In this document: piece after piece, positions 3,936 to 51,816 of the stretch
Layout: every line of letters starts with the position of its first letter
How positions within the stretch are numbered: the stretch's first letter is position 1
DNA from: Miltoncostaea oceani
GTDB lineage: Bacteria; Actinomycetota; Thermoleophilia; Miltoncostaeales; Miltoncostaeaceae
NCBI RefSeq assembly: GCF_018141545.1
Contig: NZ_CP064357.1
Span: forward strand, 310,001 to 374,000
DNA length: 64,000 nt
Reading direction: 5' to 3'
Notes under the pieces: generated by a model
Databases searched by the model: none
What the model was told of the DNA's origin: nothing
What the model saw: only the letters and a program-made list of their open reading frames with translations
Position numbers and translations under genes: made by a program

Positions 3936-4029
3936 CGGTCGAGCCTTGGGAAGGGCACGCGAGCGCCCTTTCTTCTCGCCTCGCCTGGATTGCGGCATGT
4001 CAATGCCCGGATCCGGGTGAGCCGCGTCC

Positions 4030-4051
4030 GGCGCCTATCGCGATAGGCGCC
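4030..4051. promoter_or_regulatory. 22-bp perfect palindrome, putative operator
   Basis: Each half reads GGCGCCTATCG and the two halves meet with no spacer. It lies between the divergent GH6 gene and the membrane protein gene at 4158. A perfect palindrome without a loop is more like a dimeric repressor site than a terminator. The regulator is unknown. Confidence 0.55.
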
Positions 4052-4055
4052 TCAA

Positions 4056-4084
4056 CGTGACAATCCAGGGGCCCGATTGTCACG
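4056..4084. promoter_or_regulatory. 10-9-10 inverted repeat, putative operator
   Basis: Perfect 10-base arms CGTGACAATC and GATTGTCACG separated by 9 bases, only 4 bases from the neighbouring 22-bp palindrome. Arm centres are about two helical turns apart, as expected for a second protein-binding site in the same divergent promoter region. Confidence 0.5.
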
Positions 4085-4144
4085 ATTGGCGGACACCTGG
4101 CGGGCCCCGGACAAGAGACTCGCGTGCGCCCGCGGCCGCATTCC

Positions 4145-4150
4145 TAGAGT
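4145..4150 (+). promoter_or_regulatory. -10 element TAGAGT, leaderless start
   Basis: TAGAGT lies 7 bases before the ATG at 4158, so transcription should begin at or next to the start codon. No Shine-Dalgarno sequence is present, which supports leaderless translation of the membrane protein gene. Confidence 0.55.
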
Positions 4151-4157
4151 CGCCGGC

Positions 4158-4697
4158 ATGTCCATCCTCGAACGACCGGGCGCCCCTCGGCGCCGCCCGT
4201 GGCCCCGAGCTGACGCGGAGCTCTCGCGTTGGCGCGATCCGGTGTCGCTCGCCTCGTGGGTCGGGCTCGCCTCGATCCCGGTCCTCAGCGTGGCGGCCAT
4301 TGCCGACCGGGCCGTCTGGTGGTGGCCACTCGGACTGGTCGGCTTCTACGTGGTGTCGGCCCTCGTGGTGCGCGACCGCTTCGCGCCGCTGGCGATGACG
4401 GCGGTCGGGGCGCTCAGCATCTCGCTCGTCCAGGGCTGGGACTTCAGTACCGTCACCCTCGGCGGGGTCTGCGCGCTTGGGCTCTGGGTGATGTGGAGGG
4501 CGCTGCTCTCACCGATGCCAAAGCCCGCAAGCCATCGGGGCTCAGAAGCCGAGCGGGCCTGGCTGTCCCACGAGGTCCGCCGGCTGCGCGTCGAGATCGA
4601 GCTGGACGAGGGAGATGACCCGCAGGTCTCCGCCGATCTGGCCCGCGATCTCCTCGAGCGCCGTGCCCACCTGGCGGCGCTCGAGGGAGAGGCCTAG
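4158..4697 (+). CDS. Small membrane protein with cytoplasmic helical tail, 179 aa
   Basis: Starts MSILERPGAPRRRPWPR at the ATG placed 7 bases after a TAGAGT -10 element; an in-frame upstream reading is unlikely. After a basic N-terminus there are about three hydrophobic segments (near WVGLASIPVLSVAAIA, WWWPLGLVGFYVVSALVV and FSTVTLGGVCALGLWVMW), then a charged helical tail rich in Glu/Arg that could form a coiled coil. Its stop overlaps the stop of the convergent gene at 4694 through a shared CTAG. Function is not recognised. Confidence 0.75.
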   Translation: MSILERPGAPRRRPWPRADAELSRWRDPVSLASWVGLASIPVLSVAAIADRAVWWWPLGLVGFYVVSALVVRDRFAPLAMTAVGALSISLVQGWDFSTVTLGGVCALGLWVMWRALLSPMPKPASHRGSEAERAWLSHEVRRLRVEIELDEGDDPQVSADLARDLLERRAHLAALEGEA

Positions 4698-5056
4698 CGG
4701 GACCGCATCTGGGTGATCGCCTCGGCGAACCGCCCGTGGGCGTGGTAGGTGCCGAGCAGCCGGCCCTCGACCCAGTAGGCGGTCGGGGCGCGGCGGGAGA
4801 GGCCGCGGAGCACGACCTCGTGCTTGCCGACCCGGGCGATCGCGCAGGAGTCCGCGCGCGGGTGTTCGGCGAGCATGCCCGCGATGAAGGTCTCGTCGAC
4901 CTGCTCGAGCGCCTCGCGAAGCATCGCCTCGTTGCGGGCGACGAGCCCCGGCCAGACGAAGCGGAGCTGGGCGAGGGCGGCGCGCGGGGAGAAGGAGACC
5001 TCGGGCACCGTGTCGGTGGTGGCGGCGTTCTGGGGCGGTGCGACGAGGGTGCTCAT
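4694..5056 (-). CDS. Hypothetical soluble protein, 120 aa
   Basis: Starts MSTLVAPPQNAATTDTVPEV with a good ribosome binding site (GGAGAG) upstream of the ATG at 5056. After a disordered Pro/Thr-rich N-terminus it has a helical part (FVWPGLVARNEAMLREALEQ) and a beta-rich part (VGKHEVVLRGLSRRAPTAYW). It ends in MRSR. No membrane or metal-binding motifs are seen. It converges on the 4158 gene and shares the CTAG stop overlap. Family not recognised. Confidence 0.75.
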   Translation of the reverse strand: MSTLVAPPQNAATTDTVPEVSFSPRAALAQLRFVWPGLVARNEAMLREALEQVDETFIAGMLAEHPRADSCAIARVGKHEVVLRGLSRRAPTAYWVEGRLLGTYHAHGRFAEAITQMRSR

Positions 5057-12996: not shown

Positions 12997-13242
12997 ATGA
13001 CCACTCAGATCGCCAGCGCCACCATCACCCTCTACACCCGCCCCGGCTGCCCCGGCTGCCGGATGAGCAAGCAGGTCCTCGAGCGCAACGGCGTCGAGTT
13101 CGAATCCCGAGATGTCAGCGAGGACGCCGACGCGCTCGCCGCGATCCAGACCCTCGGCTACACGTCCCTGCCGGTAGTCGTCGCCGGCCTCGAGCACTGG
13201 TCGGGCTACCAGCCGGACCGCCTCCAGGCCCTCAGCGCCTGA
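12997..13242 (+). CDS. nrdH: NrdH-redoxin (electron donor for class Ib RNR)
   Basis: An 81-residue glutaredoxin-like protein with the redox motif Cys18-Pro-Gly-Cys21 in LYTRPGCPGC, the cis-Pro region SLPVVV and the NrdH signature HWSGYQPDRL near the end. NrdH is reduced by thioredoxin reductase and reduces the C-terminal cysteines of NrdE. A GGAGG ribosome binding site precedes the ATG, and a TAGTGT hexamer at 12927 is a candidate -10 giving a leader of about 55 bases. First gene of nrdHIEF; nrdI follows after 5 bases. Confidence 0.93.
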   Translation: MTTQIASATITLYTRPGCPGCRMSKQVLERNGVEFESRDVSEDADALAAIQTLGYTSLPVVVAGLEHWSGYQPDRLQALSA

Positions 13243-13247
13243 TCGGC

Positions 13248-13649
13248 GTGGAGCTGCGGATCGTCTACTACAGCGCCCCGAGTGGGAACACCCGGCGCTT
13301 TGTCGAGCGCCTCGGCCTGCCGGCTGCTCGCGTCGACGATGACGAGGCCCTGCGCGCCCTCGGCGAGGGCCCGATCTGCCTGGTGACCCCGACCTACAGC
13401 GGCCGCGTCCCGGCTCCGGTGGCCCGCTTCCTGCGGACTCCTGAGCACCGGTCCCGGCTCGCCGGTGTGATCGCCGGGGGGAGCACAAACTTCGGCGCTG
13501 ACTTCGGCCGGGCGGGCAAGCTCGTCTCCTCGGCGTGCGGGGTCCCGCTCTTGCACACCTTCGAGCTCAGCGGCCTGCCCGAGGACCTCGAGATCACCCG
13601 CAGACAACTGGAGAGCATGTGCAAGTCCCCGCACCCATCGACTACCTGA
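13248..13649 (+). CDS. nrdI: NrdI flavodoxin-like protein
   Basis: GTG start; 133 residues. The flavodoxin-like phosphate loop is visible in YYSAPSGNTRRFVERL, the FMN-binding strand in LVTPTYSGRVPAPV, and the NrdI-specific Gly-rich segment in VIAGGSTNFGADFG. NrdI supplies oxidant that builds the manganese-tyrosyl radical in NrdF. Its 3' end overlaps the start of nrdE by about 31 bases, so translation of the two is probably coupled. Confidence 0.92.
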   Translation: MELRIVYYSAPSGNTRRFVERLGLPAARVDDDEALRALGEGPICLVTPTYSGRVPAPVARFLRTPEHRSRLAGVIAGGSTNFGADFGRAGKLVSSACGVPLLHTFELSGLPEDLEITRRQLESMCKSPHPSTT

Positions 13650-16600
13650 GCCTCAACAGTGAGCTGAACATCTACGGCCCCGACGGCCGTATCCAGTTCG
13701 CAAAGGACCGCGAGGCGGTGCGGGGCTACTTCCTGGAGCACGTCAACCCGAACACGGTCTTCTTCCACAACCTGGAGGAGAAGCTCGAGTACCTGGTGGC
13801 CAACGGCTACTACGAGGCCGCGTTCCTCGCCCAGTACCGGCCGGCGTTCGTGAAGGAGCTCTTCAAGGCGATCTACGCCCGGCGCTACCGGTTCACGACC
13901 TTCGTCGGCGCCTACAAGTTCTTCACCGGCTACGCACTGAAGACCTTCGACGGCAGTCGCTACCTCGAGCGGTACGAGGACCGGATCGTCGTCTGCGCCC
14001 TCTACCTGGCGCGCGGGTCGGAGAAGCAGGCCCGCCTCCTGGCCGAGGAGATGATCGCCCAGCGTTTCCAGCCGGCGACCCCGACCTTCCTGAACTCCGG
14101 CAAGGCCCAGCGCGGCGAGCTGGTGTCGTGCTTCCCCGCCGGCACGCCGGTCGAGACGACCGAGGGCCCGAAGGCCATCGAACTGATCCGGGTCGGCGAC
14201 ACGGTCATCACCCACGACGGCTCGGCCAAGGCCGTCACCGACGTGATGGAGCGCGCCAACGAGGAGGGCCTCGTCGCCCTCTCGATCTCCGGTGTCTCCG
14301 ACGTCTACTACAGCACCCCTGAGCACCCGGTCCTCGTCCACCGCCCCGGCGCCCAGCACGACCTGCGGCCGTGCCTGGTCGGCGACGGCGACCAGACCGA
14401 CGTCTGGTGGGTCCGCGCCGGCGACGTCCAGGAGGGCGACCTGCTGGCGATCGACCCCCGTCGCATCGGCGAGGCGACGGCTGAGGAGGACGTGGCCGCC
14501 CTCGCGGTCCCCTCCAACGTCGCGACGCTCGAGCGCCCCTCGCGGTCGAAGGCGGCCAGGGCGGCCGCTGGCGCCCAGGCGACTGAGGTCCTCCGGGTCA
14601 TCGCCGGGCACCTCATGGCCCCCGTGACCAAGGCCCGCCGGACGCCCCGCGCGCCCATCACCGTCTACAACCTCGAGGTCGAGGACAACCACACCTACCT
14701 GGCGCGCGGCGTGGTGGTCCACAACTGCTTCCTGATCCAGATCGAGGACTCGATGAACTCGATCGGGCGCGCCGTCAACAGCGCCCTCCAGCTGTCCAAG
14801 CGTGGCGGCGGGGTGGCCTTCAGCCTCTCCAACCTGCGCGGCGCCGGCGACCCGATCAAGAACATCGAGGACCAGTCGAGCGGCGTCCTGCCGGTCATGA
14901 AGCTGCTCGAGGACTGCTTCTCCTACGCCGACCAGCTCGGCGCCCGGCAGGGAGCCGGGGCCGTCTACCTCCACGCCCACCACTGGGACATCGAGACGTT
15001 CCTCGACTGCCGCCGCGAGGCCGCCGACGAGAAGATCCGGATCAAGACCCTCTCACTCGGGGTCGTCGTCCCCGACATCACCTTCGAGCTCGCCCGGGGG
15101 GACGAGGACATGTACCTGTTCTCCCCCTACGACGTCGCCCGCAAGTACGGCAAGCCCTTCTCGGACGTTGTGATCAGCGACGTCTACCGCGAGCTCGTCG
15201 ACGACCCGGGGGTGCGCAAGCGCAAGATCAAGGCGCGCGCGTTCTTCCAGCTCCTCGCCGAGGTCCAGTTCGAGTCCGGCTACCCGTATCTGCTGTTCGA
15301 GGACAACGCCAACCGGGCCAGCGCGGTGCCCGGGAGGATCGTCATGTCGAACCTCTGCGTGACGGGTGAGACCGAGCTCCTGACCGACAAGGGGCCCCGC
15401 CGGGCGAAGGACCTCCATGAGTCCGGCGAGGATCTGCGCGTGATGGTCGACCGGCGCACCATCGGGACTCGAGAGGCGAGCCTGCGCGGCCTGGAGGAGT
15501 ACCCGGCGATCCCCATGGCCCTGACCGCTCGACAGGCCGAGGTCTTCAAGGTCTCGACCGTCGAGGGCTTCGAGCTGCGCGCGACCGCTTGGCACAAGAT
15601 GTTCATCGAGCGCGATGGGGAGGTCCTCGAGGTCCGTCTCGCGGAGCTGATGCCCGGCGACCACCTGCTCGTCCAGTCCGGTGAGGGCCGCTTCGGCGAC
15701 CATCACGACCCGGACCTCGCGTACCTCGCCGGCTGGCTGGCGGGAGACGGGACCTTTGGGGAGCTGAGGAGCGGCGCCGACACCGCTCGCTGGGACCTCT
15801 ACGGGGACAAGGACCAGTTCGTACCGGATCTCGAGCTGGCAGCCGTCAACAGCCTTGCTCAGCACCATGACGGCGATGTCCACCACTCCTCGACGCTGAC
15901 GCCTGCCTTCCGTGGCGAGTACGCCGGCCGGCGCAGCCTCTCGAGCGCGCCGCTCACCCGGGTGCTCGAGCGGCACGGTATGACGCGTGAGTCCAAGCTG
16001 CGGGTCCCGCAGTTCGTGAGCGAGGGCAGCCGCGAGACGGTCTGTGCCTATCTGTCCGGCGTCTACCAGGCCGACGGGTCGGTGTGCGGCGACGCGAAGG
16101 CCAAGACGTGCTCGATCCAGCTGGGCTCCGTCGACCGCGGGTTCCTCGTCGAGGTCCAGCGTCTGCTTCTGAACCTCGGGATGTTCAGCCGGATCTACGC
16201 CACCAGGAAGGCCGGCACGAGCCTCCTGCCCGATGGCCGCGGTGGGCAGCGCGAGTACCCGACCCAGCAGCTCTACACCCTCCGCATCAGCGACGCCGTC
16301 GGACGAGAGCGGTTCATGGACACCGTCGCGCTCTCACCGGAGGCGCAGGTCAAGTTCGAGCGCCTGAACGCGCCGTTCCAGAAGCCCTACTACCAGGCGC
16401 CCCACCGCTTCCGGGCACGCGTCGCGTCCGTCGCACCGGACGGGATCGAGGACGTCTACGACACGACCGTGGATGAGGCCCATTCGCTCATCTTCAACGG
16501 CTTGGTGACTGGGAACTGCTCGGAGATCCTGCAGCCCCAGGAGGCCTCTGAGATCGATGACGAGCAGGCCTTCGTGGAGGTCGGCAAGGACGTCAGCTGC

Positions 16601-17497
16601 AACCTCGGCAGCCTCAATATCTCCCAGGTCATGGCGGGTCCGGACATCCGCCGGACCATCGACGCCGCGATCCGTGCCCTGTCAGCGGTCTCGGACATGT
16701 CCGACATCAGCTGCGTGCCGACGATCCAGGCCGGCAACCGGCGCTCACACGCGGTCGGGCTCGGCCAGATGAACCTCCACGGCTACCTGGCGAGCCAGGA
16801 GATCCACTACGACTCGCCGGAGGCGGTCGACTTCGTGGACGCCTACTTCCGGACGGTCGCCTACCACGCGCTCTGGACCTCGAGTGTCATCGCCCGCGAG
16901 ACCGGCGAGTCCTTCGACGGCTTCACCGAGAGCGGCTACCACTCGGGGGCCTTCTTCGAGCGGTATGCCAAGGCCTGGCGCCCCCGCACCGCGAAGGTGC
17001 GGCGGATCATGCGCGACGCGGGCATCGAGCTTCCGAGCGTCGAGGACTGGGCGCGGCTTGCCCGCCATGTCCGCCGGCACGGCATGTACAACCAGAACCT
17101 CCAGGCCGTCGCCCCGACGGGCTCGATCAGCTACGTCAACCACGCGACCGCCTCGATCCACCCGATCACCTCGATGATCGAGATGCGCAAGGAGGGCAAG
17201 ATGGGCCGGGTCTACTACCCGGCGGCCCACCTGGACGACGAGAACGCCGAGTACTTCAAGGACGCGTATGAGATCGGCCCTTACGCGCTGATCGACGTCT
17301 ACGCCGCCGCCGCCCAGCACGTGGACCAGGGGCTCTCCTGCACTCTCTTCTTCACCGAGGAGGCCTCGACGCGCGACATCAACCGGGCCCAGATCTACGC
17401 CTGGCGCAAGGGCCTGAAGACCCTCTACTACGTGCGCGTGCGAAGCGCCGTGCTCGAGGGCACCGACACCGAAGGATGTGTTTCATGCGCAGTCTGA
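13619..17497 (+). CDS. nrdE: Ribonucleotide reductase class Ib large subunit with two inteins
   Basis: GTG start at 13619 (VQVPAPIDYLSLNSELNIYG). The 1292-residue precursor becomes about 706 residues after removal of two inteins, the normal NrdE length. Exteins have all class Ib landmarks: PTFLNSGKAQRGELVS then Cys (first redox Cys), NIEDQSSGVLPVMKLLED, MSNL then CSEI (radical-bearing catalytic Cys), GLGQMNLHGYLA, APTGSISYVNHATASIHP and the C-terminal shuttle pair GCVSC. It makes deoxyribonucleoside diphosphates in the cytoplasm with NrdF. Enzyme activity must depend on protein splicing because both inteins interrupt active-site cysteines. The stop region overlaps nrdF. Confidence 0.95.
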   Translation: MQVPAPIDYLSLNSELNIYGPDGRIQFAKDREAVRGYFLEHVNPNTVFFHNLEEKLEYLVANGYYEAAFLAQYRPAFVKELFKAIYARRYRFTTFVGAYKFFTGYALKTFDGSRYLERYEDRIVVCALYLARGSEKQARLLAEEMIAQRFQPATPTFLNSGKAQRGELVSCFPAGTPVETTEGPKAIELIRVGDTVITHDGSAKAVTDVMERANEEGLVALSISGVSDVYYSTPEHPVLVHRPGAQHDLRPCLVGDGDQTDVWWVRAGDVQEGDLLAIDPRRIGEATAEEDVAALAVPSNVATLERPSRSKAARAAAGAQATEVLRVIAGHLMAPVTKARRTPRAPITVYNLEVEDNHTYLARGVVVHNCFLIQIEDSMNSIGRAVNSALQLSKRGGGVAFSLSNLRGAGDPIKNIEDQSSGVLPVMKLLEDCFSYADQLGARQGAGAVYLHAHHWDIETFLDCRREAADEKIRIKTLSLGVVVPDITFELARGDEDMYLFSPYDVARKYGKPFSDVVISDVYRELVDDPGVRKRKIKARAFFQLLAEVQFESGYPYLLFEDNANRASAVPGRIVMSNLCVTGETELLTDKGPRRAKDLHESGEDLRVMVDRRTIGTREASLRGLEEYPAIPMALTARQAEVFKVSTVEGFELRATAWHKMFIERDGEVLEVRLAELMPGDHLLVQSGEGRFGDHHDPDLAYLAGWLAGDGTFGELRSGADTARWDLYGDKDQFVPDLELAAVNSLAQHHDGDVHHSSTLTPAFRGEYAGRRSLSSAPLTRVLERHGMTRESKLRVPQFVSEGSRETVCAYLSGVYQADGSVCGDAKAKTCSIQLGSVDRGFLVEVQRLLLNLGMFSRIYATRKAGTSLLPDGRGGQREYPTQQLYTLRISDAVGRERFMDTVALSPEAQVKFERLNAPFQKPYYQAPHRFRARVASVAPDGIEDVYDTTVDEAHSLIFNGLVTGNCSEILQPQEASEIDDEQAFVEVGKDVSCNLGSLNISQVMAGPDIRRTIDAAIRALSAVSDMSDISCVPTIQAGNRRSHAVGLGQMNLHGYLASQEIHYDSPEAVDFVDAYFRTVAYHALWTSSVIARETGESFDGFTESGYHSGAFFERYAKAWRPRTAKVRRIMRDAGIELPSVEDWARLARHVRRHGMYNQNLQAVAPTGSISYVNHATASIHPITSMIEMRKEGKMGRVYYPAAHLDDENAEYFKDAYEIGPYALIDVYAAAAQHVDQGLSCTLFFTEEASTRDINRAQIYAWRKGLKTLYYVRVRSAVLEGTDTEGCVSCAV
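14129..14725 (+). other. Intein 1 in NrdE (mini-intein, 199 aa)
   Basis: Precursor residues 171-369. It starts with Cys (block A, CFPAGTPVETTEG), has block B STPEHPVLVH with the Thr-x2-His pattern, and ends VVVHN followed by Cys (+1), with the expected penultimate His. There is no LAGLIDADG or HNH endonuclease; the middle Ala/Arg-rich segment may be a decayed linker. It sits before the first redox-active Cys of NrdE. Confidence 0.93.
15356..16516 (+). mobile_element. Intein 2 in NrdE with LAGLIDADG endonuclease (387 aa)
   Basis: Precursor residues 580-966. Block A is CVTGETELLTDKGPRRA, block B is RATAWHKMF. The central homing endonuclease has two LAGLIDADG motifs, YLAGWLAGDGTFG and YLSGVYQADGSV, each with the acidic residue, so cleavage activity is plausible. 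The end reads GLVTGN then Cys; the usual penultimate His is Gly. It interrupts MSNL/CSEI at the radical-bearing Cys. Confidence 0.93.
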
Positions 17498-18492
17498 GCG
17501 ACGAGGCAACCACGCCGGCGCCCGGGGGCGCCCTCGCACCATCGGCGTTGATCGTCCCGAAGCGTGCGATCAACTGGAACGCCCTCGAGGACGAGCTCGA
17601 CAAGATGGTCTGGGAGAAGCTCATCACCCAGTTCTGGGTGGCGACGCGCTTCCCGATCTCCAACGACCTCACCTCCTGGCGCAAGCTGACGCCGGCCGAG
17701 CAGGAGCTCGTGCTCCACGTCTTCGCCGGCCTGACGCTGCTGGACACGATCCAGGGCTCGGTCGGTGCGCCGGCGCTGCTCGCTGATGCGGCCACCCCGC
17801 ACGAGGAAGCGGTGCTCGCGAACATCGCCTTCATGGAGCACGTCCACGCCCAGTCCTACTCTCAGATCTTCCAGACGCTCGCGTCGACCACGGAGATCAA
17901 CGCGGCCTTCCGCTGGGCGGCCGAGAACGAGCGCCTGCAGTTCAAGGCGCGGACGATCCAGGGTCTCTACGCCGACCCGGATCCGCTTCGGCGCAAGGTC
18001 GCCTCGGTGATGCTCGAGTCGTTTCTGTTCTACTCGGGCTTCTTCCTGCCGCTCTGGCTGAACGGCCACGCACGGCTGCCCAACACCGCGGACATCATCA
18101 AGTTCATCATCCGCGATGAGGCGATCCACGGCTACTACATCGGCCACAAGTTCCAGCGCGGCCTGGAGCGTGAGCGAAAGCGGACCCAAGGTGAGATCAA
18201 GGACTTCGCCTACGACCTGCTCGGCGAGCTCTACGACAACGAGGTCCGCTACACCCAGGACCTCTACGACGCCTTCGGGCTGACCGAGGACGTCAAGGTC
18301 TTCCTGCGCTACAACGCCAACAAGGCCCTCATGAACCTCGGCCTCGAGCCGCTGTTCCCGTCCGAGCCGGTGAACCCGATCGTGCTGAGCGGCCTGTCCC
18401 TCGGTGCCGAGACCCACGACTTCTTCTCGACCACCGGGTCGTATGTGGTCGGGCGCTCCGAGCCGACGACCGACGAGGACTGGGACTTCTGA
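17485..18492 (+). CDS. nrdF: Ribonucleotide reductase class Ib small subunit
   Basis: The 335-residue ferritin-like protein has the metal ligands of NrdF: Asp in LTLLDTIQGS, Glu and His in NIAFMEHVHAQSYSQIF (which also holds the radical Tyr), Glu in AAENERLQFKA, and Glu/His in FIIRDEAIHGYYIG. It carries the Mn2 or Fe2 tyrosyl radical cofactor. The ATG at 17485 lies 8 bases after GAAGGA and overlaps the nrdE stop by 13 bases; an in-frame ATG at 17476 is too close to that site. It ends SEPTTDEDWDF, the usual type of tail that docks onto NrdE. Last gene of the operon. Confidence 0.95.
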   Translation: MRSLSDEATTPAPGGALAPSALIVPKRAINWNALEDELDKMVWEKLITQFWVATRFPISNDLTSWRKLTPAEQELVLHVFAGLTLLDTIQGSVGAPALLADAATPHEEAVLANIAFMEHVHAQSYSQIFQTLASTTEINAAFRWAAENERLQFKARTIQGLYADPDPLRRKVASVMLESFLFYSGFFLPLWLNGHARLPNTADIIKFIIRDEAIHGYYIGHKFQRGLERERKRTQGEIKDFAYDLLGELYDNEVRYTQDLYDAFGLTEDVKVFLRYNANKALMNLGLEPLFPSEPVNPIVLSGLSLGAETHDFFSTTGSYVVGRSEPTTDEDWDF

Positions 18493-40240: not shown

Positions 40241-40276
40241 GCCGGGGCGACGTTCTCACTCGAACGTCGCCCCGGC
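40241..40276. terminator. Perfect 15-bp hairpin
   Basis: Arms GCCGGGGCGACGTTC and GAACGTCGCCCCGGC with a 6-base loop, located 15 bases beyond the minus-strand lipoprotein stop at 40292. Strong terminator candidate for that gene. Confidence 0.75.
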
Positions 40277-41660: not shown

Positions 41661-41737
41661 GCTCGAGTAGCTCAGTTGGGAGAGCGCCGCGGTCACATCG
41701 CGGGTCACTTGCGCTGGTTCGAACCCAGCCTCGAGCA
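41661..41737 (+). tRNA. tRNA-Val (CAC), unusual variable loop
   Basis: Acceptor GCTCGAG / CTCGAGC, D-arm GCTC/GAGC, anticodon stem CCGCG/CGCGG with loop GTCACAT (anticodon CAC, U33 present), T-arm GCTGG/CCAGC with TTCGAAC. Between anticodon and T stems are 9 bases instead of 4-5, an apparent insertion. No CCA encoded. Confidence 0.8.
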
Positions 41738-41807
41738 CTAAGACAAAGAAGCTGGAGGATCGCAGTCTCCTCCGTCCACTGTTTCATCCGCAGTAACCGC
41801 ACCACGC

Positions 41808-41880
41808 GGGGGATTAGCTCAGTTGGGAGAGCGCCTGCTTTGCAAGCAGGAGGTCGTCGGTTCGACCCCGTCATCCTCCA
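41808..41880 (+). tRNA. tRNA-Ala (TGC)
   Basis: Acceptor GGGGGAT / ATCCTCC plus A73, anticodon stem CCTGC/GCAGG with loop TTTGCAA. The T-stem has one mismatch (position 50-64). No CCA encoded. Confidence 0.95.
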
Positions 41881-42070
41881 TCATCGTCACTTCACGAAAC
41901 GTCCCGAGTCTCATCGAGTGTGGCCCGCCAGATCGGCGGGCCGGTGGTTCCGGGAGATCAGCCGCCCTGCGCAGACCTTTGGGTCAGGCGCAGCCCGGGC
42001 ACTCCGGGTGGCGAGCACCAAAGTGTCGACCAGCCCATCGTTCAACGATGGGAGCGGGCGGCGCACACCC

Positions 42071-42158
42071 GCCGGTGTGGTGGAATTTGGGAGACACGCC
42101 GGGCTCAGACCCCGGTGCTCTTCGCAAGGGCGTGCAGGTTCGAGACCTGCCACCGGCA
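42071..42158 (+). tRNA. tRNA-Leu (CAG)
   Basis: Type II tRNA with a long variable arm. Acceptor GCCGGTG / CACCGGC, anticodon stem CCGGG/CCCGG with loop CTCAGAC, T-arm GCAGG/CCTGC. Confidence 0.95.
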
Positions 42159-42332
42159 TAGGGGCGAGAGGCCCGCCGCGCCAGACCTGGCCGCGGCACA
42201 GGAGGGAACCAGCAGAGACCGGCCACGCGAGATCCAGGCGTCCTGGTAGATGCTCAGGGGTTAAGGGGCCCAAGCCATGCCTAGTCCTAGAGATCCCGGC
42301 AACCTTATGCTTCCTTCACGCAGGATCGCACA

Positions 42333-43397
42333 GTGCACATCCTCGAAGTTTCGTGGCTGGCTGGTCTGCTCGAAGGAGAGGGCTGGTTCGGAACAACGAC
42401 CCAGCGAGGGAGGCGGACCCCGGCAGTCCAGGTCGAGATGACCGATCGAGATGTGGTGGAGCGCGCGGCCTCACTCATGGGCGTAGGAGTGATGGACCGG
42501 GCCCAGAGGAATCCGCTTCATTCTCAATGCTTCATGGCGCGAGTCTCTGGGAACCGAGCCGCCGACCTTATGACCATCTTGGCAGGCGAGCTTGGTCATC
42601 GCAGATCAGAGAGAATCTCCGGGGTCCTGTCCGACTGGGCTTCCCGTCCGGATTCCACACCGAAGCTCACGGCAACGACGATTGCCGAGATCCTGGAGGC
42701 ACGGTCCTCCTCGAGCTACTCGCAGCGGGCGATGGCAGAGAGGCATGGCGTCAGTCGGCTGACAATCCGTCGAATCCAACGAGAACAGGGTTTCGCGAGG
42801 AACGATGCGCCTACTCGGTCGAGCCTCTTCAGCGTCATCGGGCCGGCGACGTGCCGTGACCGGCAAGTGGCCTGGCTAGCGGGACTCTTAGAAGGAGAGG
42901 GCAGCTTCATGCACCCCGCACCTTCTCGTCCCCGCTCCCCGGTCGTTAGTCTGTCCATGACTGACCAAGATGTGGTCGAACGGGCCGCCTCCATCCTCGG
43001 CGTGTCAGCGTGCCGAACGGCGCCGCGCAGCTCAACAGGTAGAGCCGTGTGGTGCGTACAAGCGCGGGGTAGGCGCGCTGTCGCAACCATGATGGCGGTA
43101 GATCCCTATATGGGCGAGCGCCGATCTCTCAGAATAGAGGAGGTTCTGGCGGCGTGTCCGATGACAGGGCCGCGTCGTAAGGTTTCCAGGTCGCAGGCGG
43201 AGGAGATCGCTGCTCGGATGAGGCGCGGGCACTCAGCTCAGTCTCTCGCCCGCGAGTTCTCCCTGTCGGTGAGGCGGGTGTATGAGCTGGCGCGGCCGGG
43301 TGCGCTGGCCACGGAGCCTGCTCCGATCACGATCGGCCATGAAGGGGACGAGCAGTCCCATACGATGGGGCCGCCCGTCAACCGCCCTTCGTTCTGA
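42333..43397 (+). CDS. Tandem LAGLIDADG homing endonuclease with HTH domains, 354 aa
   Basis: GTG start; a TATGCT hexamer lies about 25 bases upstream. The protein is a tandem duplication: each half has a LAGLIDADG-type motif (WLAGLLEGEGWF at residues 8-19 and WLAGLLEGEGSF at 181-192), a VEMTDRDVVERAASLMGV- or LSMTDQDVVERAASILGV-like element, and a helix-turn-helix (RAMAERHGVSRLTIRRIQRE; AQSLAREFSLSVRRVYELAR). The acidic Glu needed for metal binding is kept in both motifs. Such enzymes cut long DNA sites. It is free-standing in the tRNA array, not inside an intron or intein that I can see. Confidence 0.88.
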   Translation: MHILEVSWLAGLLEGEGWFGTTTQRGRRTPAVQVEMTDRDVVERAASLMGVGVMDRAQRNPLHSQCFMARVSGNRAADLMTILAGELGHRRSERISGVLSDWASRPDSTPKLTATTIAEILEARSSSSYSQRAMAERHGVSRLTIRRIQREQGFARNDAPTRSSLFSVIGPATCRDRQVAWLAGLLEGEGSFMHPAPSRPRSPVVSLSMTDQDVVERAASILGVSACRTAPRSSTGRAVWCVQARGRRAVATMMAVDPYMGERRSLRIEEVLAACPMTGPRRKVSRSQAEEIAARMRRGHSAQSLAREFSLSVRRVYELARPGALATEPAPITIGHEGDEQSHTMGPPVNRPSF

Positions 43398-43469
43398 CAT
43401 GGCAAATCCTCAGCGGGGTCGCGCATGCTTTGGATCGGTGGAGAGGGTTGCAGAAACGTCTAGCAACGA

Positions 43470-43543
43470 GGGGGTGTAGCTCAGCTTGGGAGAGCGTCTG
43501 CATGGCATGCAGAAGGTCGCGGGTTCGAACCCCGCCACTTTCA
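43470..43543 (+). tRNA. tRNA-Ala (GGC)
   Basis: Acceptor GGGGGTG / CACTTTC with several G-U pairs, anticodon stem TCTGC/GCAGA with loop ATGGCAT, T-arm GCGGG/CCCGC. Confidence 0.94.
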
Positions 43544-43822
43544 CTCAGATCCGGCTCACAGCATGGGAGCCGCCAGTTCAGCATCGCGGCGCGCGCCCCG
43601 TCCCCGTGGGGGGTTGCGGAGCGGGCAGGACGCCTGGCCCAACCCGGGCGGCGAATAGGGGCGGCAAGCCCTCGCGCCGTAGTGTCGTCATCTTCTCGTG
43701 CGCGCCCAGTGGCGAAGTCTGCCGCCGGGGCAACCGGCCAGGGCTTCTGACCCGGCTGGGAATAGCGCCTCTTCGTGAGGCACCGCGCCGGCGCTGTCTT
43801 CCTCCCGCTCACCGCGGGACGC

Positions 43823-43895
43823 GCGACCGTAGCTCAGTTGGTAGAGCGTCTGCCTTCCAAGCAGAACGTCGTCGGTTCGAACCCGATCGGTCGCT
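43823..43895 (+). tRNA. tRNA-Gly (TCC)
   Basis: Acceptor GCGACCG / CGGTCGC plus T73, anticodon stem TCTGC/GCAGA with loop CTTCCAA. Confidence 0.95.
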
Positions 43896-43939
43896 TCGTA
43901 ATCCGTCCGTCCACGTCCACTCTCAGACCCAACTCACAT

Positions 43940-44013
43940 GGGGCTATCGTCTAGTTGGTCCAGGACACCACCCTCTCACGGTGGAGACGGGAGTTCGAAC
44001 CTCCCTAGCCCTA
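43940..44013 (+). tRNA. tRNA-Glu (CTC)
   Basis: Acceptor GGGGCTA / TAGCCCT (first pair G-U), anticodon stem CCACC/GGTGG with loop CTCTCAC, T-arm GGGAG/CTCCC. Confidence 0.93.
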
Positions 44014-44093
44014 CTGGTCTACCCCGTGATTCCGCGCGATGGGCGGCATCACTCGAAACTCGAGGGCTGCCTTCCCCTCGGGAGAGGTTCCTT

Positions 44094-44165
44094 GCCGGCT
44101 TAGCTCAGAGGTAGAGCACTTTCCTGGTACGAAAGGGGCCGTCGGTTCGAGTCCGACAGTCGGCT
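44094..44165 (+). tRNA. tRNA-Thr (GGT)
   Basis: Acceptor GCCGGCT / AGTCGGC, anticodon stem CTTTC/GAAAG with loop CTGGTAC, T-arm GTCGG/CCGAC. Confidence 0.95.
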
Positions 44166-44292
44166 TGTTGTGAATCAGGTTCGGTGTGCCGTCTCGCATA
44201 GACACCGACTCAGGGCAGCGCCCTCACTGGCCAAGAGATAGGCGAGCGCCGGACCGGGGTTTACCCGCCGAGGAGCTCGTGGCGGTTCACGA

Positions 44293-44364
44293 TGGGAGAT
44301 GGTCCAGAGGTACGGACACCGGCTGCTGACGCCGGGGACCCTGGTTCGAGCCCAGGTCTCCCAA
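44293..44364 (+). tRNA. tRNA-Gln (CTG) with G33
   Basis: Acceptor TGGGAGA / TCTCCCA plus A73 (U1-A72 as in tRNA-Gln), anticodon stem CCGGC/GCCGG, loop TGCTGAC, T-arm CCTGG/CCAGG. Position 33 is G instead of the nearly universal U, so decoding may be impaired or the tRNA may be degenerate. Confidence 0.85.
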
Positions 44365-44424
44365 TCCTGGCTCGTTCCTCTACGAGCCGTCCCCGAGGTA
44401 TCCGGGCAGGAGCCTGTCCGGCGT

Positions 44425-44497
44425 GCGGCCGTAGCTCAGCTGGTAGAGCGCCAGGTTGCCAACCTGGAGGTCGCGGGTTCGAGTCCCGCCGGCCGCT
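44425..44497 (+). tRNA. tRNA-Gly (GCC)
   Basis: Acceptor GCGGCCG / CGGCCGC plus T73, anticodon stem CCAGG/CCTGG with loop TTGCCAA, T-arm GCGGG/CCCGC. Confidence 0.96.
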
Positions 44498-44622
44498 TCA
44501 TCACTCTGTCCATCGCGCGCGAACCCGTCGGGTCTCATGCCGCAGACGACGGGCGAGAGGCAAGGGAAGTGCATCTTCGGCGTCGTGTCGCGGTGCCGAC
44601 ATCGCATCACCGCAGGACCCTG

Positions 44623-44696
44623 GGAAGGGTAGCTCAGTTGGTTAGAGCGCCGCTCTGATGAGGCGGATGTCGAAGGTTCGAGTCCTTCTCCTTCCA
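44623..44696 (+). tRNA. tRNA-Ile (GAT)
   Basis: Acceptor GGAAGGG / TCCTTCC, anticodon stem CCGCT/GGCGG with loop CTGATGA, discriminator A. Confidence 0.95.
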
Positions 44697-44762
44697 TGCA
44701 CGTGAGAGACCCGCCGAGAGAAAATCTGGGCGGGAGCTAGGTCCGCCCTCTGGGCGGTTCGA

Positions 44763-44835
44763 GGGGCTGTAGCTCAGTCGGGAGAGCGTTCGCTTCGCAT
44801 GCGAAAGGCCGCCGGTTCGATTCCGGCTAGCTCCA
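44763..44835 (+). tRNA. tRNA-Ala (CGC)
   Basis: Acceptor GGGGCTG / TAGCTCC, anticodon stem TTCGC/GCGAA with loop TTCGCAT, T-arm GCCGG/CCGGC. Confidence 0.95.
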
Positions 44836-44908
44836 TGTGTTGTCCAGACACCAGCCCCCCTCGGGATAGTTCTCCGGTTCAGCGCGGCCACCAAGGTCGC
44901 GTCATCGT

Positions 44909-44981
44909 GGTGCGCGTAGCTCAGCGGTAGAGCTCCCGGTTGTGGTCCGGGCGGTCGTGGGTTCGAATCCCATCGTGCACC
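44909..44981 (+). tRNA. tRNA-His (GTG)
   Basis: Acceptor GTGCGCG / CGTGCAC with C73 and the extra G at -1 (44909) typical of tRNA-His; anticodon stem CCCGG/CCGGG with loop TTGTGGT. Confidence 0.95.
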
Positions 44982-45025
44982 CTCCTCCTCAGGTCTCCAT
45001 CCCGGACATGGGCGTCCGGTGCTGT

Positions 45026-45098
45026 GCGGCCGTAGCTCAGCTGGTAGAGCATCCGCTTCCCAAGCGGAGAGTCGTCGGTTCGAGTCCGATCGGCCGCT
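45026..45098 (+). tRNA. tRNA-Gly (CCC)
   Basis: Acceptor GCGGCCG / CGGCCGC, anticodon stem TCCGC/GCGGA with loop TTCCCAA. A CTTCTT microsatellite starts immediately after it. Confidence 0.96.
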
Positions 45099-45137
45099 TC
45101 TTCTTCTTCTTCTTCTCCTCCTCCTCAGCGTTTCCCC

Positions 45138-45177
45138 GCCCCGCGCCGTGGGCTTCTTAAGCCCGGCGGCGCGGGGC
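45138..45177. terminator. Long nested hairpin in tRNA array
   Basis: Outer arms GCCCCGCGCC and GGCGCGGGGC with an inner GGGCTT / AAGCCC pairing, followed by TTCCCT. It may end the transcript from the upstream tRNAs or act in processing. Confidence 0.65.
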
Positions 45178-45208
45178 TTCCCTCTGGTTCGGGCTCGACT
45201 CACTCCCT

Positions 45209-45295
45209 GCGGGGGTGGCGGAATGGTAGACGCGCCGGGTTGAGGGCCTGGTGAGCTTTTTACAGCTCGTGGGGGTCCGAATCCCCCTCCCCGCA
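45209..45295 (+). tRNA. tRNA-Leu (GAG)
   Basis: Type II; acceptor GCGGGGG / TCCCCGC, anticodon stem CCGGG/CCTGG with loop TTGAGGG, T-arm GGGGG/CCCCC. The T-loop is TCCGAAT, with C at position 55 in place of the usual pseudouridine-forming U. Confidence 0.92.
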
Positions 45296-45369
45296 CTGAT
45301 CTCCAGGCCCCACTTCGTGAGCGTCCGACCAAGGCGGTAGGGGAAATCTGCAGCGGCTCATCCGGGGCC

Positions 45370-45375
45370 TAGTCT
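45370..45375 (+). promoter_or_regulatory. -10 element TAGTCT, leaderless start
   Basis: TAGTCT is 6 bases before the ATG at 45382. Confidence 0.55.
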
Positions 45376-45381
45376 GACCCC

Positions 45382-45732
45382 ATGGCCAGAGGTCGCAGTG
45401 TCCGCTCCGCCCTGTCAACGCTCGCTCCGCCTGCGCGGTATCTGGATGACGAGATCCCGACGCTGCCGGCGCAGACCGAAGGCGAGTTCATCGACGCCTA
45501 CGGCTTGGTGACCGCCGCGGGGCTCCATGAGGCGCTCAGCGCCCTCCCGACTGTCGCCTCGACCATCGAGGCCTACCGCGCCGCCGGCGCCAGGACCGAA
45601 GCCGAGCTCTACCGCGGCAGCTACATCGTGATCAGCCAGGAGCTACTTCGCCGGGCGGCCCTCGGGCACCTCGACCAGGACGATCGGACCGCCGCGGCGT
45701 GCGCCGCCGCCCGCCAGATCCTCGGGGAGTAG
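45382..45732 (+). CDS. Hypothetical protein with M-A-R-G start, 116 aa
   Basis: Starts MARGRSVRSALSTLAPPARY, leaderless. Its body is helical (EFIDAYGLVTAAGLHEALSA, ELLRRAALGHLDQDDRTAAA) with no metal or membrane signals. It sits alone between tRNA-Leu and tRNA-Thr on the same strand as the array. The N-terminal MARGR links it to other proteins in the window. Function unknown. Confidence 0.78.
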   Translation: MARGRSVRSALSTLAPPARYLDDEIPTLPAQTEGEFIDAYGLVTAAGLHEALSALPTVASTIEAYRAAGARTEAELYRGSYIVISQELLRRAALGHLDQDDRTAAACAAARQILGE

Positions 45733-45930
45733 GGAACTCGAAGGAGGGCCGGCCCCGCCGGCCTCTCGTGCGTCACGCAGCGGCGCCTTCTTTGAGGGTG
45801 CTGCGTTCGGCTGGGCATGGTTGTGGACGATCCGGTTGATCTGCGGAGTCTGATAGGCACCGCCCGCCAGGTTCGGCTCCTGGGACAACCACTTGAGCAA
45901 TCTCTCCCGCCGTCCCTTCTGATGGCGCGC

Positions 45931-46004
45931 GCCGACGTAGCTCAGACGGCCAGAGCACCCGTCTCGTAAGCGGGAGGCCCGGGGTTCGAATCCCCGCGTC
46001 GGCT
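45931..46004 (+). tRNA. tRNA-Thr (CGT)
   Basis: Acceptor GCCGACG / CGTCGGC plus T73, anticodon stem CCCGT/GCGGG with loop CTCGTAA, T-arm CGGGG/CCCCG. Confidence 0.95.
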
Positions 46005-46260
46005 CCTCCTCCTCCCCCGTCTTCCTCACGACCCTCGACCGCATGATCGCGAGACCGGCAACGGGGCCCAGGGCGGCAAGTGCCGCGCCGCAGGGGCGCT
46101 GACGCGTCCTCGCCGATCGCGGTCTCAGATAGCGCCGGATCCCGAGGAAGGACTGGCCACAAGATGGGCGCGGGCGCTGTCCCGATAGGACAGGCGGTCC
46201 GAGTTCCACCGGGCACGGTGGAGCATGATGAGTCTCCCAGGCCAGGGAGGCTCCCGTCCG

Positions 46261-46291
46261 GCGGGGCCGGCATGGACGATGCCGGCCCCGC
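46261..46291. terminator. Perfect 13-bp hairpin (first of a pair)
   Basis: Arms GCGGGGCCGGCAT and ATGCCGGCCCCGC with a 5-base loop. It is followed 7 bases later by a second 13-bp hairpin. Confidence 0.65.
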
Positions 46292-46298
46292 TCGTCCA

Positions 46299-46331
46299 CC
46301 TCACCCCACCCGCTCCATGGGTGGGGTGAGG
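46299..46331. terminator. Perfect 13-bp hairpin (second of a pair)
   Basis: Arms CCTCACCCCACCC and GGGTGGGGTGAGG with a 7-base loop, followed by TTGTT on the plus strand. Likely terminator for transcription from the upstream tRNAs. Confidence 0.7.
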
Positions 46332-46392
46332 TTGTTCCATCGGTCGGCGAGGCATCCGCGAGGGCGCCCCCGGCCGATCGTGTGTCCACCCT

Positions 46393-46466
46393 GGGGGTGT
46401 AGCTCAGCTGGCTAGAGCACCGGATTGTCAATCCGGAGGTCGCGGGTTCGAGTCCCGTCACTCCCG
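46393..46466 (+). tRNA. tRNA-Asp (GTC)
   Basis: Acceptor GGGGGTG / CACTCCC with G73, anticodon stem CCGGA/TCCGG with loop TTGTCAA. Confidence 0.96.
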
Positions 46467-46523
46467 CTTCATGAAGGGCATGTCAGCGCGGGCCCTCGTC
46501 GAGGGCGCCCGCCGCCGTCGGGG

Positions 46524-46826
46524 CTACTCCCGCGGGCGCTTGAAGGTCCAGCAGGTGCGCACGGGCGTGGAGACACCACCCGTGATGCCGCGCCGCTCGG
46601 CGCCGACCCAGACTTCATCCACCGTCTCGCTGACGAGTTCCCACCCCTCGGCTCCGAGGGCGTTCATGAACTCGACACGGGAGAACTCGGCCTCGACATT
46701 CGCCTCCCGCGCCTCGACAGCGCCGTCTACCGAACGCGCCACCGCCAGCGAGGACGTCCAACGCTGACGGCGCGGATCATACGACCACTCGACGGTCGCC
46801 CTGAGGTACTCCCAGCCTTGACTCAC
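46524..46826 (-). CDS. DUF4177-like small protein, 100 aa
   Basis: GTG start overlapping the stop of the upstream gene by 4 bases. The pattern GWEYLRATVEWSYD ... MNALGAEGWELVSETVDEVW is that of DUF4177-type proteins (aromatic start, then asparagine-leucine-gly-glu-gly-trp-glu-leu). These are small soluble proteins of unknown role. The longer in-frame reading is Pro/Arg-rich and non-coding. Confidence 0.72.
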   Translation of the reverse strand: MSQGWEYLRATVEWSYDPRRQRWTSSLAVARSVDGAVEAREANVEAEFSRVEFMNALGAEGWELVSETVDEVWVGAERRGITGGVSTPVRTCWTFKRPRE

Positions 46827-47008
46827 CGCCGGAACAGGAGGAGGTGGTTCAGGTTGGCCTGGTGCTGTTCGGCCTCCTGCCACGCGGCGTCAACGCCTTG
46901 CTGCCTCCGCAGGCCTTGATCTACGTGGTGTCGATAGGCGGCCTCGCGTTCAGCAAGGTGCCTACTCACTTCACGGTTGATCTGAGACCGGATGTACTCG
47001 TCCTGCAC
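46823..47008 (-). CDS. Small coiled-coil protein, 61 aa
   Basis: GTG start at 47008 with AAGGA upstream. A single highly charged helix (RSQINREVSRHLAEREAAYR, DAAWQEAEQHQANLNHLLLF) with Gln/His/Arg-rich composition, probably a coiled coil. It is translationally coupled to the DUF4177-like gene and lies 61 bases after the gene ending at 47070. Function unknown. Confidence 0.68.
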   Translation of the reverse strand: MQDEYIRSQINREVSRHLAEREAAYRHHVDQGLRRQQGVDAAWQEAEQHQANLNHLLLFRR

Positions 47009-47069
47009 CCGCGCGTCCTTCCCTCGTGCCGGTCCGGGCAGGATACATCGGGACGGCGGGACCTGGCAC

Positions 47070-47663
47070 TCACCGCGAGCGGCCGAGATACCGCTTCCAG
47101 ATGCGGCGCAGCTCGCCAGCCTCGAAGTCCGGTAGGCCTCGGCTGAGCCGTGCGAGGGAGACACCTCGGCTCGAGGTGATGAACCTCGGGCTGACCAGCA
47201 GCTCCCCGCCATCGCGCCAGATCGGCGGTAGCTCCCCGGACGCGTGTGCCCGCTCGTACTCGCTGAGGGAAAGGCCCGTCGCCCAGTAGGCGCGCAACGC
47301 CTCGTCGGTGCCCTTGCTCGAGGCGACGTCCCAGGCGAGCACCGGGTAGGCGAAGGGCTCGGGTCCCTCATAGGAGATCTCGATCGGGGTGGGGTCGTAC
47401 ATCGGGCCGGCCCCGGCCGAGCCACGGACCCAACGCGCGAGGCCCTCCATCTGCGCCGAGCAGAAGAGCCCCTCCAGGCGCCCCTCACGGTCGTCGGGCC
47501 TCAGGGCATCGGCGCGGACGAAGAGCTCATGGGCGGGGCCGTAGTCGGTCGCCTTGTCCGTTCCGCCGGCGCGGTAGACCCGGCGCCGGACCTCGGGGCG
47601 CTCCCCCTCGGGCGTACGGGACAAGGTGGTCGGGGCCGCTCTGATGCCTCGTCCTCTCGCCAT
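47070..47663 (-). CDS. Hypothetical protein with M-A-R-G start, 197 aa
   Basis: I chose the ATG at 47663 (MARGRGIRAAPTTLSRTPEG), 9 bases after a TACGCT -10; an ATG two codons upstream is only 3 bases from the -10. A basic disordered N-terminus precedes an alpha/beta domain (SAGAGPMYDPTPIEISYEGP, AYWATGLSLSEYERAHASGE, LLVSPRFITSSRGVSLARL) and a basic tail RRIWKRYLGRSR. It has one Cys and no membrane span. Family not recognised; it may head the unit that continues with the 61- and 100-residue genes. Confidence 0.75.
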   Translation of the reverse strand: MARGRGIRAAPTTLSRTPEGERPEVRRRVYRAGGTDKATDYGPAHELFVRADALRPDDREGRLEGLFCSAQMEGLARWVRGSAGAGPMYDPTPIEISYEGPEPFAYPVLAWDVASSKGTDEALRAYWATGLSLSEYERAHASGELPPIWRDGGELLVSPRFITSSRGVSLARLSRGLPDFEAGELRRIWKRYLGRSR

Positions 47664-47672
47664 CCTCATCCG

Positions 47673-47678
47673 AGCGTA
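47673..47678 (-). promoter_or_regulatory. -10 element TACGCT (minus strand)
   Basis: TACGCT on the minus strand is 9 bases before the ATG at 47663 (MARG start). Confidence 0.5.
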
Positions 47679-47777
47679 GGGGAGGCCCGCGAGGACGTGA
47701 TGCTCTTCAGACATGGGCCTGGTCCCTTTGGGCCCGAAGTGCCTCGCGGCGCGGACCGTCCGTGCCGGGGGATCCAT

Positions 47778-47852
47778 GCGGCGTTGGTGAAGCGGCCGAA
47801 CACATCGGACTTTCAATCCGACAAATCACGGGTTCGAATCCCGTACGCCGTA
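47778..47852 (+). tRNA. tRNA-Glu (TTC)
   Basis: Acceptor GCGGCGT / ACGCCGT (first pair G-U), D-arm GTG/CAC, anticodon stem TCGGA/TCCGA with loop CTTTCAA, T-arm ACGGG/CCCGT. Variable loop of 6 bases. Confidence 0.92.
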
Positions 47853-47876
47853 TCGAGAGTGGTATCCGGCGCGGGC

Positions 47877-48203
47877 TCAGACGCCGGGGTGTGAGCAGCT
47901 GATGCGCAGGTGGGCACTCGAGCCGGGGATCGCACTCACCTCGACGGCCGCGTCGCCGGCCGGCTCCGGGGAGATCTCGATCGAGAAGCGCATGCCGAGG
48001 GCGCCGCTCGCGCGGCACAGGAGATCGAGGGACGGTGGCGACTGGCCGGCCTCGAGCTCCGTCAGCTCATCGGGGTGGAGGCTGAGGATGTCCGCGAGCT
48101 CGAGCGAGCTGACGCCGGTGCGGATCCGGTGGTCGTGGAGGGACCCGGCCGGGGCGCGGGCGAGGATCAACCGTGCCTCGCGGGTGTCGTCGGTCGTGGG
48201 CAT
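47877..48203 (-). CDS. XRE-type helix-turn-helix regulator, 108 aa
   Basis: A five-helix Cro/CI-like HTH lies at about residues 22-70: GSLHDHRIRTGVSSLELADI, then LHPDELTELEAGQSPPSLD and LLCRASGALG. A small C-terminal beta part follows (RFSIEISPEPAGDAAVEVSA). It should be a DNA-binding repressor, possibly of its own region. ATG at 48203 is 8 bases after TACTGT, so leaderless. Confidence 0.85.
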   Translation of the reverse strand: MPTTDDTREARLILARAPAGSLHDHRIRTGVSSLELADILSLHPDELTELEAGQSPPSLDLLCRASGALGMRFSIEISPEPAGDAAVEVSAIPGSSAHLRISCSHPGV

Positions 48204-48211
48204 CGCCGGCG

Positions 48212-48217
48212 ACAGTA
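48212..48217 (-). promoter_or_regulatory. -10 element TACTGT (minus strand)
   Basis: On the minus strand TACTGT is 8 bases before the ATG at 48203. Confidence 0.5.
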
Positions 48218-48302
48218 GGCGCCCGGGCGATGCCTCTGCGGCACTTGCGCCTCCGGACGAGGCCGTCCGCGCGGAACGGGGATGCGCACGAGGGCAGGCG
48301 GC

Positions 48303-48308
48303 TACTGT
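48303..48308 (+). promoter_or_regulatory. -10 element TACTGT, leaderless start
   Basis: TACTGT is 6 bases before an ATG at 48315 that opens a 23-codon ORF. It is the same hexamer that serves the divergent XRE gene. Confidence 0.5.
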
Positions 48309-48314
48309 CAGTCC

Positions 48315-48386
48315 ATGGGCTCATCCATCACGCGTTCTCACACCCCGGCCTTCGTCCGCGGCAAGAGGGTCATCGAGCTGCCCTGA
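48315..48386 (+). CDS. Candidate leaderless small protein, 23 aa
   Basis: MGSSITRSHTPAFVRGKRVI followed by ELP and a TGA. It is placed exactly at leaderless spacing from a TACTGT -10 and lies in the gap between two minus-strand genes, so it has no competing frame. It is basic in the middle. Support is positional only; there is no ribosome binding site and no homologue I recognise. Confidence 0.45.
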   Translation: MGSSITRSHTPAFVRGKRVIELP

Positions 48387-48408
48387 TCCGCGTGAGGACT
48401 CGCGGGGT

Positions 48409-49074
48409 TCAGGAGGGGGTCGCAGGCTCCTTCTCCGAGGAGGCGGCCGCTCGCTGGCGCCGGACATGGCGGCGCTCTCGGACCCCGATCACGGCGCCGA
48501 CTGCCGCCATGACGGCGAACGCGACGCCGAAGGCGACCCACGGCTTGTCGGCGAAGGCCTTGCCGGCGAAGTAGCCGATGAGGGCCGCCTGGGTCGACCA
48601 GAGAACGGCACCCACGCTGTCGAACAGGAGGAAGCGCCGGTAGGACATCTGCCCGGCGCCGCAGGAGAGGTTGATGGCGATCCGGATCCCCGGCAGGAAG
48701 CGGCCGGCGAGGACGAGCGCCGCCCCTTGGCGGGCGACCATCCTCTCCGCGGCCTCGATGCGCCCGGCCCCGGCGACCTTCACGACGCCACGTCGGATCG
48801 GTCCCCGTCCGCGACGGCCGGTCCAGTAGGCGGTCGAGTCGCCGATCACGGCTCCGACCGCGCCGGCGGCGATCACGAGGGGCAGGCTGAGGGTGCCGTC
48901 GGCCGCGAGGACCGCGGCGGCCACGATCGCGGTCTCACCCGGGAACAGCGGGAAGACCCCATCTCCAGCGACCACGAGCAGGACTGCCCAGTAGCCGAAG
49001 CGCGCGGCGGCGTCGGCGAGCTCGCCGAACGATCCGCCGACCGCCGCGGTGAGACTCCCGATCAGGCCGCTCAC
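48409..49074 (-). CDS. DedA family membrane protein, 221 aa
   Basis: Conserved DedA/SNARE-associated features: VVAGDGVFPLFPGETAIVAA (the re-entrant Phe-Pro-Gly-Glu motif), GAVIGDSTAYWTGRRGRG (Gly-Asp), and GRFLPGIRIAINLSCGAGQM (Arg-Phe-x-Pro-Gly). DedA proteins flip lipids such as undecaprenyl phosphate or phosphatidylethanolamine across the membrane. GTG start overlaps the stop of the upstream CorC-like gene by 4 bases, so they are co-translated. Confidence 0.92.
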   Translation of the reverse strand: MSGLIGSLTAAVGGSFGELADAAARFGYWAVLLVVAGDGVFPLFPGETAIVAAAVLAADGTLSLPLVIAAGAVGAVIGDSTAYWTGRRGRGPIRRGVVKVAGAGRIEAAERMVARQGAALVLAGRFLPGIRIAINLSCGAGQMSYRRFLLFDSVGAVLWSTQAALIGYFAGKAFADKPWVAFGVAFAVMAAVGAVIGVRERRHVRRQRAAASSEKEPATPS

Positions 49075-50366: not shown

Positions 50367-50490
50367 GTGCGGTGGACTCCTTGGTAGGACCACCGGCGGT
50401 CAAGGGGGCCGGGCGGTCTCAGATGACGGGCCCGAACGTAGGCGCTCCCGGCCTCATTTCACCGGAAACTCACCGTTCGCGGGTCGGCCC

Positions 50491-50721: not shown

Positions 50722-50754
50722 GCGCGGGTGACTCCTGTGGTTGTGAGTGCGGGG

Positions 50755-51809: not shown

Positions 51810-51816
51810 ACGGGGG

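Follow-up and report, generated by a model that had tools for sequence, protein, structure and literature searches.

What role, if any, do two perfectly symmetrical elements play when they lie side by side between two divergent gene starts of Miltoncostaea oceani? The elements belong to the window, that is, the whole stretch of 64,000 nucleotides analysed here (C2:310001-374000), within a genome of 4.54 Mb divided into three contigs, of which C2 comprises 815,643 bp. The DNA is GC-rich (69.6%). An inverted-repeat scan located, exactly where the sequence-only reading had placed them, (i) a perfect palindrome of 22 bp, GGCGCCTATCG/CGATAGGCGCC (4030-4051; arms 4030-4040 and 4041-4051, 11 nt, 100% matched, gap 0); and (ii) a perfect 10-9-10 inverted repeat, hereafter IR2, CGTGACAATC-N9-GATTGTCACG (4056-4084; arms 4056-4065 and 4075-4084, 10 nt, 100% matched, 9-nt gap). 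The spacing between them is 4 bp (TCAA, 4052-4055), and neither element is assigned to a strand. The pair is real, locally unusual and unique in the genome, but it is an ordinary kind of feature.

The divergent placement described by the same reading was also borne out, as both elements are flanked by the starts of two genes. The first one, on the minus strand, encodes a GH6 glycoside hydrolase (P0001; 3003-3935, counted from the ATG at its hydrophobic leader), the identity of which is strong: it matches PF01341 (E 5.1e-52) and Cel6 structures. A longer reading frame begins at an ATG at 3998 and adds an R/K-rich extension resembling that of a paralogue located on contig C1; the gene may start at either 3935 or 3998. 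The second one, P0002 (4158-4697, plus strand), encodes an orphan protein of 179 aa with hydrophobic segments; its G+C at codon positions 1, 2 and 3 (0.75/0.54/0.87) is coding-like. No relatives of P0002 were found in the 60 related genomes, genome_contigs, phages, plasmids or viral_contigs, and no Pfam family matched it.

The spacer between both genes measures 222 bp (GH6 start at 3935) or 159 bp (start at 3998), and the palindrome is situated, respectively, 94 or 31 bp upstream of the GH6 start codon; from the end of IR2 to the start of P0002 there are 73 bp. A possible -10 element, TAGAGT (4145-4150, plus strand), was identified by eye 7 nt ahead of the P0002 start codon, where it would give a leaderless transcript, and a consensus scan returned no sigma-70-like site. 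Where P0002 converges at its 3' end with a 120-aa ORF (4694-5056), there is an ordinary terminator-like element, a hairpin with 12-bp arms (4652-4686, no strand). A Pfam scan of the neighbours recognised a subtilase, the GH6 enzyme, an S51 peptidase and a DUF11 protein, and no DNA-binding family among 18 neighbourhood proteins (to about 22 kb, with gaps). A weak helix-turn-helix match, below the cut-off, occurs at 47880-48203, 43 kb from the elements.

A general mark of operators is a symmetric dyad that lies upstream of a gene start or between two of them, and this is present here beside putative promoters. Our main reading, with a rough probability of 0.48, is that the two elements are adjacent candidate operators, which one or two dimeric DNA-binding proteins would bind, thereby controlling the divergent promoters of the GH6 and membrane-protein genes. 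Mechanistically, one dimer would recognise IR2 through its CGTGACAATC half-sites, spaced 19 bp from centre to centre, and a second one would sit next to it on the palindrome. If the GH6 gene starts at 3998, a repressor at the palindrome would cover the promoter or the leader; with a start at 3935, the position would be better suited to an activator or silencer acting from upstream. It is improbable that both elements form a composite two-operator bidirectional switch through which one or more undescribed C2 regulators would act on this divergent pair only, so that the secreted GH6 enzyme and the orphan membrane protein would be coupled.

These elements were compared with other inverted repeats in a 464-kb sample (the window plus 20 stretches of 20 kb, i.e., 200 kb of C2 and 200 kb of C1), using shuffled sequence as null model. 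The sample contains 82 inverted repeats with arms of at least 10 nt and gaps of at most 12 nt, against 32.75 expected from the shuffles. With 50% GC, the IR2 arms are the lowest of all 82 (the next ones reach 62%), and 0.1 repeats with arms of at most 50% GC are expected in 464 kb by shuffling; the palindrome arm, at 73% GC, is unremarkable. Pairs of inverted repeats lying at most 30 bp apart are expected 0.05 times per 464 kb, which argues for the operator reading; three such pairs were seen (4030-4084; window 46261-46332; L056 13653-13726), and the last two have a higher GC content and resemble ordinary tandem hairpins. When 3936-4157 (222 bp), a region picked after the fact, was shuffled (order-1), a proportion of 5e-5 of the shuffles contained two such repeats. 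Since perfect AT-rich arms stand between gene starts in a GC-rich genome, sequence-specific recognition is a better fit than selection for a stable hairpin. The zero gap of the palindrome lends the operator reading little weight, because zero-gap palindromes are also found past gene ends in this genome.

The main rival of the operator reading, possible but somewhat unlikely, is that the elements act as hairpins in tandem at the RNA level, either terminating or insulating in both directions or structuring the 5' leader of an extended transcript from either gene. On each strand, folding yields two hairpins (-29.5 and -31.6 kcal/mol; z -4.9 and -5.3 versus shuffles), although the z-score stems from the repeats themselves and, in consequence, RNA and DNA functions are not separable by it. 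Gene ends in this genome often carry hairpins that lack a T tract, some of them zero-gap palindromes, and the two further neighbouring pairs mentioned above point in the same direction. Nevertheless, the site lies between two gene starts, and the 82 repeats comprise 44 in called genes, 16 in convergent, 16 in tandem and 4 in divergent regions (the palindrome and IR2 being two of these four), plus 2 at edges. The gene calls behind these classes are codon-score based and not free of errors: the repeat at window 40241-40276, for one, is probably mislabelled as "divergent". Convergent regions of the sample, unlike divergent ones, are enriched in inverted repeats: divergent spacers add up to 29.9 kb of the 464 kb, so about two divergent repeats would be found there by chance and no clear enrichment is apparent. 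The low GC content of the IR2 arms also weighs against RNA hairpins, as do a consensus scan that returned no terminator-like site and the lack of any Rfam family in the window segment or the GH6-homologue loci. The elements do not have the form of an intrinsic terminator, in which a GC-rich hairpin beyond the end of a gene is followed by a T tract; T-tract-independent termination could still take place at them.

An unselected coincidence of two inverted repeats is unlikely. The earlier assertion that such a palindrome is expected far less than once in 64 kb is right for that length, as order-1 (Markov) shuffles of the window give 0.067 palindromes of at least 22 bp and one is seen. By extrapolation from these window shuffles, chance alone would yield about five palindromes of 22 bp over the full 4.5 Mb of the genome. 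The 464-kb sample contains five of at least 22 bp (1.0 expected from three shuffles), and palindromes of this size are not exceptional in the sampled genome. Three of the other four (L045 15568, L054 13765 and L058 8979) lie at most about 26 bp from a called gene 3' end and are terminator-like; the fourth (L057 17543) has no called gene nearby. Inverted repeats with arms of at least 10 nt are common too, with 33 expected by chance per 464 kb; in the window alone, allowing gaps of up to 20 nt, 19 were seen versus 4.5 expected from order-1 shuffles. Furthermore, the site shows no conservation and was picked for looking unusual. What argues against coincidence is the proximity of the two elements and the AT-rich arms of IR2, with the low expectations given above. 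Regarding the half-site GGCGCCTATCG, its only exact occurrences in the window are the two halves of the palindrome; at one mismatch it is found at 7 places versus 3.0 expected, a number reached by 5 of 100 shuffles.

At up to three mismatches, neither the palindrome nor IR2 has a second copy in the 4.54-Mb genome, and GTGACA...TGTCAC, with any spacer of 6-26, does not occur elsewhere in it. Elsewhere in the genome, the 16-bp core of the palindrome is matched twice, each time with 2 mismatches and within a long open frame; a direct-repeat arrangement of the half-site, a poorly chosen test, gave no match. The frequent, promoter-unrelated copies that the sequence-only reading had named as evidence against itself did not appear. 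The lack of further copies of either element also means that there is no sign of a regulon.

Regarding relatives, 241 bp around the elements gave, among 60 related genomes, a 26-bp match in one other genome, outside both elements, and no orthologous region for comparison was found in the relatives searched. Across 399 genomes of the class, IR2 at up to two mismatches was detected in its own genome and in one other, at 2 mismatches, its reversed control being found in one genome. The palindrome, at up to three mismatches, was detected in 31 of the 399 (its own included) versus 8 for its reversed control, an excess that speaks against its being absent elsewhere. Out of 32 places in other genomes, 29 loci were fetched; an open frame of 144 codons or more runs across every one of them, and many have GATCGCGATC at the place of the palindrome's TATCGCGATA, so these look-alikes were taken as coding-sequence matches. 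Promoter-linked relatives of either element were not found in the 398 other genomes of the class (29 of the 32 palindrome places examined). IR2 has exact matches at three places in genome_contigs, in unrelated organisms, and the exact scans of viral_contigs returned 0 and 0 matches. A literature search did not find CTATCGCGATAG, CCTATCGCGATAGG, GCCTATCGCGATAGGC or TGACAATCCAGGGG; GTGACAATC showed in none of the matches listed by a looser search (8 of 1,984). The absence of a regulon, of conservation in the 398 other class genomes and of a nearby DNA-binding family argues against the operator reading, the second general mark of operators being precisely recurrence at co-regulated promoters or conservation. 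In any case, recurrence would not be required of an operator whose regulator acts strictly locally.

Homologues of the GH6 gene are present in 4 of 61 genomes, including its own, where the paralogue sits on C1. Neither element was found in the 600-800 bp before the aligned start of this paralogue and of the three homologues from the 60 relatives; repeats with arms of at least 8 nt upstream of the four genes amount to three, all GC-rich, in L006 and L007, and these are probably inside a reading frame. The C1 paralogue and two same-genus homologues (L006, L007, L009) have in common an upstream block, TTCCATAGnCT ... TGCCGATAnnnGCGCCACGTG, that is not present at the GH6 gene of the window and, except for one TGCCGATA, is missing from the 464-kb sample; no Rfam match was found for it. 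In this block, CGATA and GCGCC are three bases apart, and in the palindrome half they are one base apart. As a link between palindrome and block, the motif pair was rejected: with 0-5 bases between its two parts, it has 5 occurrences in the 464-kb sample, the palindrome itself accounting for two, versus 0 to 14 for five control patterns. No close relatives of P0001 were found in viral_contigs, and no near DNA match in plasmids.

The C1 paralogue (L009 1-3927) adjoins a gene for a cellulose-synthase-like glycosyltransferase and is divergent from a GH26-like gene. The region is possibly a polysaccharide-synthesis cluster, and these two neighbours suggest polymer synthesis rather than cellulose breakdown. 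The operator idea put forward at the outset thus stands in part: the divergent placement and the operator-like dyad with AT-rich IR2 arms speak for it, but the proposed response to cellulose or glucan is unsupported, given (i) the absence of a CebR-operator match near the site; (ii) the lack of dyads at the GH6 paralogue and the three homologues; (iii) the synthesis-type genes beside the C1 paralogue; and (iv) the lack of a recognisable regulator gene among the tested neighbours.

That the elements are a mobile-element scar or recognition site, a site for site-specific recombination or a partition site of the 815-kb C2 is very improbable, since each occurs just once in the genome, the scanned neighbours include no recognisable recombinase and the ParB_N match that C2 offers lies about 451 kb away (C2:764977), even if C2 does carry many unmatched genes and phage-like cargo.

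Contig C2 itself may be a megaplasmid with phage-like cargo. The ParB_N match (G000:C2:764977-765198; L068) is in an open frame of 691 codons, unusually long for ParB. Phage-like nucleotide and translation genes, matched to PHROGs, are found at window 12997-18492 and 58757-59497 and at L045 6840-8066 and 14503-15567; the set includes the large and small subunits of ribonucleotide reductase, a thioredoxin-type protein, a dNMP kinase, a tyrosyl-tRNA synthetase and an exonuclease. No Terminase_6N match was found in the genome. The ORF of the ribonucleotide reductase large subunit (13535-17497; 1320 aa) matches PHROGs in separate blocks (34-200, 398-611 and 974-1320), which suggests one or more inserts such as inteins. 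In addition, C2 has 19 tRNA genes on the plus strand (window 41661-52802), mostly in one dense array, and within this tRNA region two strong hairpins 6 bp apart (46261-46332) resemble a tandem terminator.

If the pair is an operator, its 55 bp could serve as bait for regulator discovery in a lineage that has received little study; if it is not, the lesson is that perfect palindromes turn up fairly often in GC-rich genomes of this type.

We know of no operator sequence that matches the two elements, and four kinds of known systems can be compared with them. The CebR operator of Streptomyces is a 14-bp palindrome, TGGGAGCGCTCCCA, located upstream of cellulase genes under cellulose/cellobiose control. 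It is palindromic, as is the site, and would suit a GH6 gene, but its sequence differs: no match with up to three mismatches was found near 4030-4084, and the six matches in the window (8.8 expected) are at chance level. The CIRCE operator of HrcA has 9-bp arms, TTAGCACTC/GAGTGCTAA, and a 9-bp gap. IR2 has the same gap and nearly the same arm length, but the arms agree, by eye, at 5 of 9 positions, the flanking genes do not encode chaperones and the CIRCE consensus has no match at up to three mismatches in the window. The GC-rich, T-tract-less gene-end hairpins of this genome are perfect repeats, sometimes zero-gap or paired, like the two elements; unlike the elements, most of these hairpins are found beyond the 3' end of a gene, and their GC content is higher. 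Finally, dimeric regulators of the TetR, MarR and GntR types use dyad operators in divergent promoter regions. While the pair differs from these operators in being single-copy and having no regulator gene beside it, it resembles them in its perfect dyads, in the presence of two of them side by side and in its position between divergent genes.
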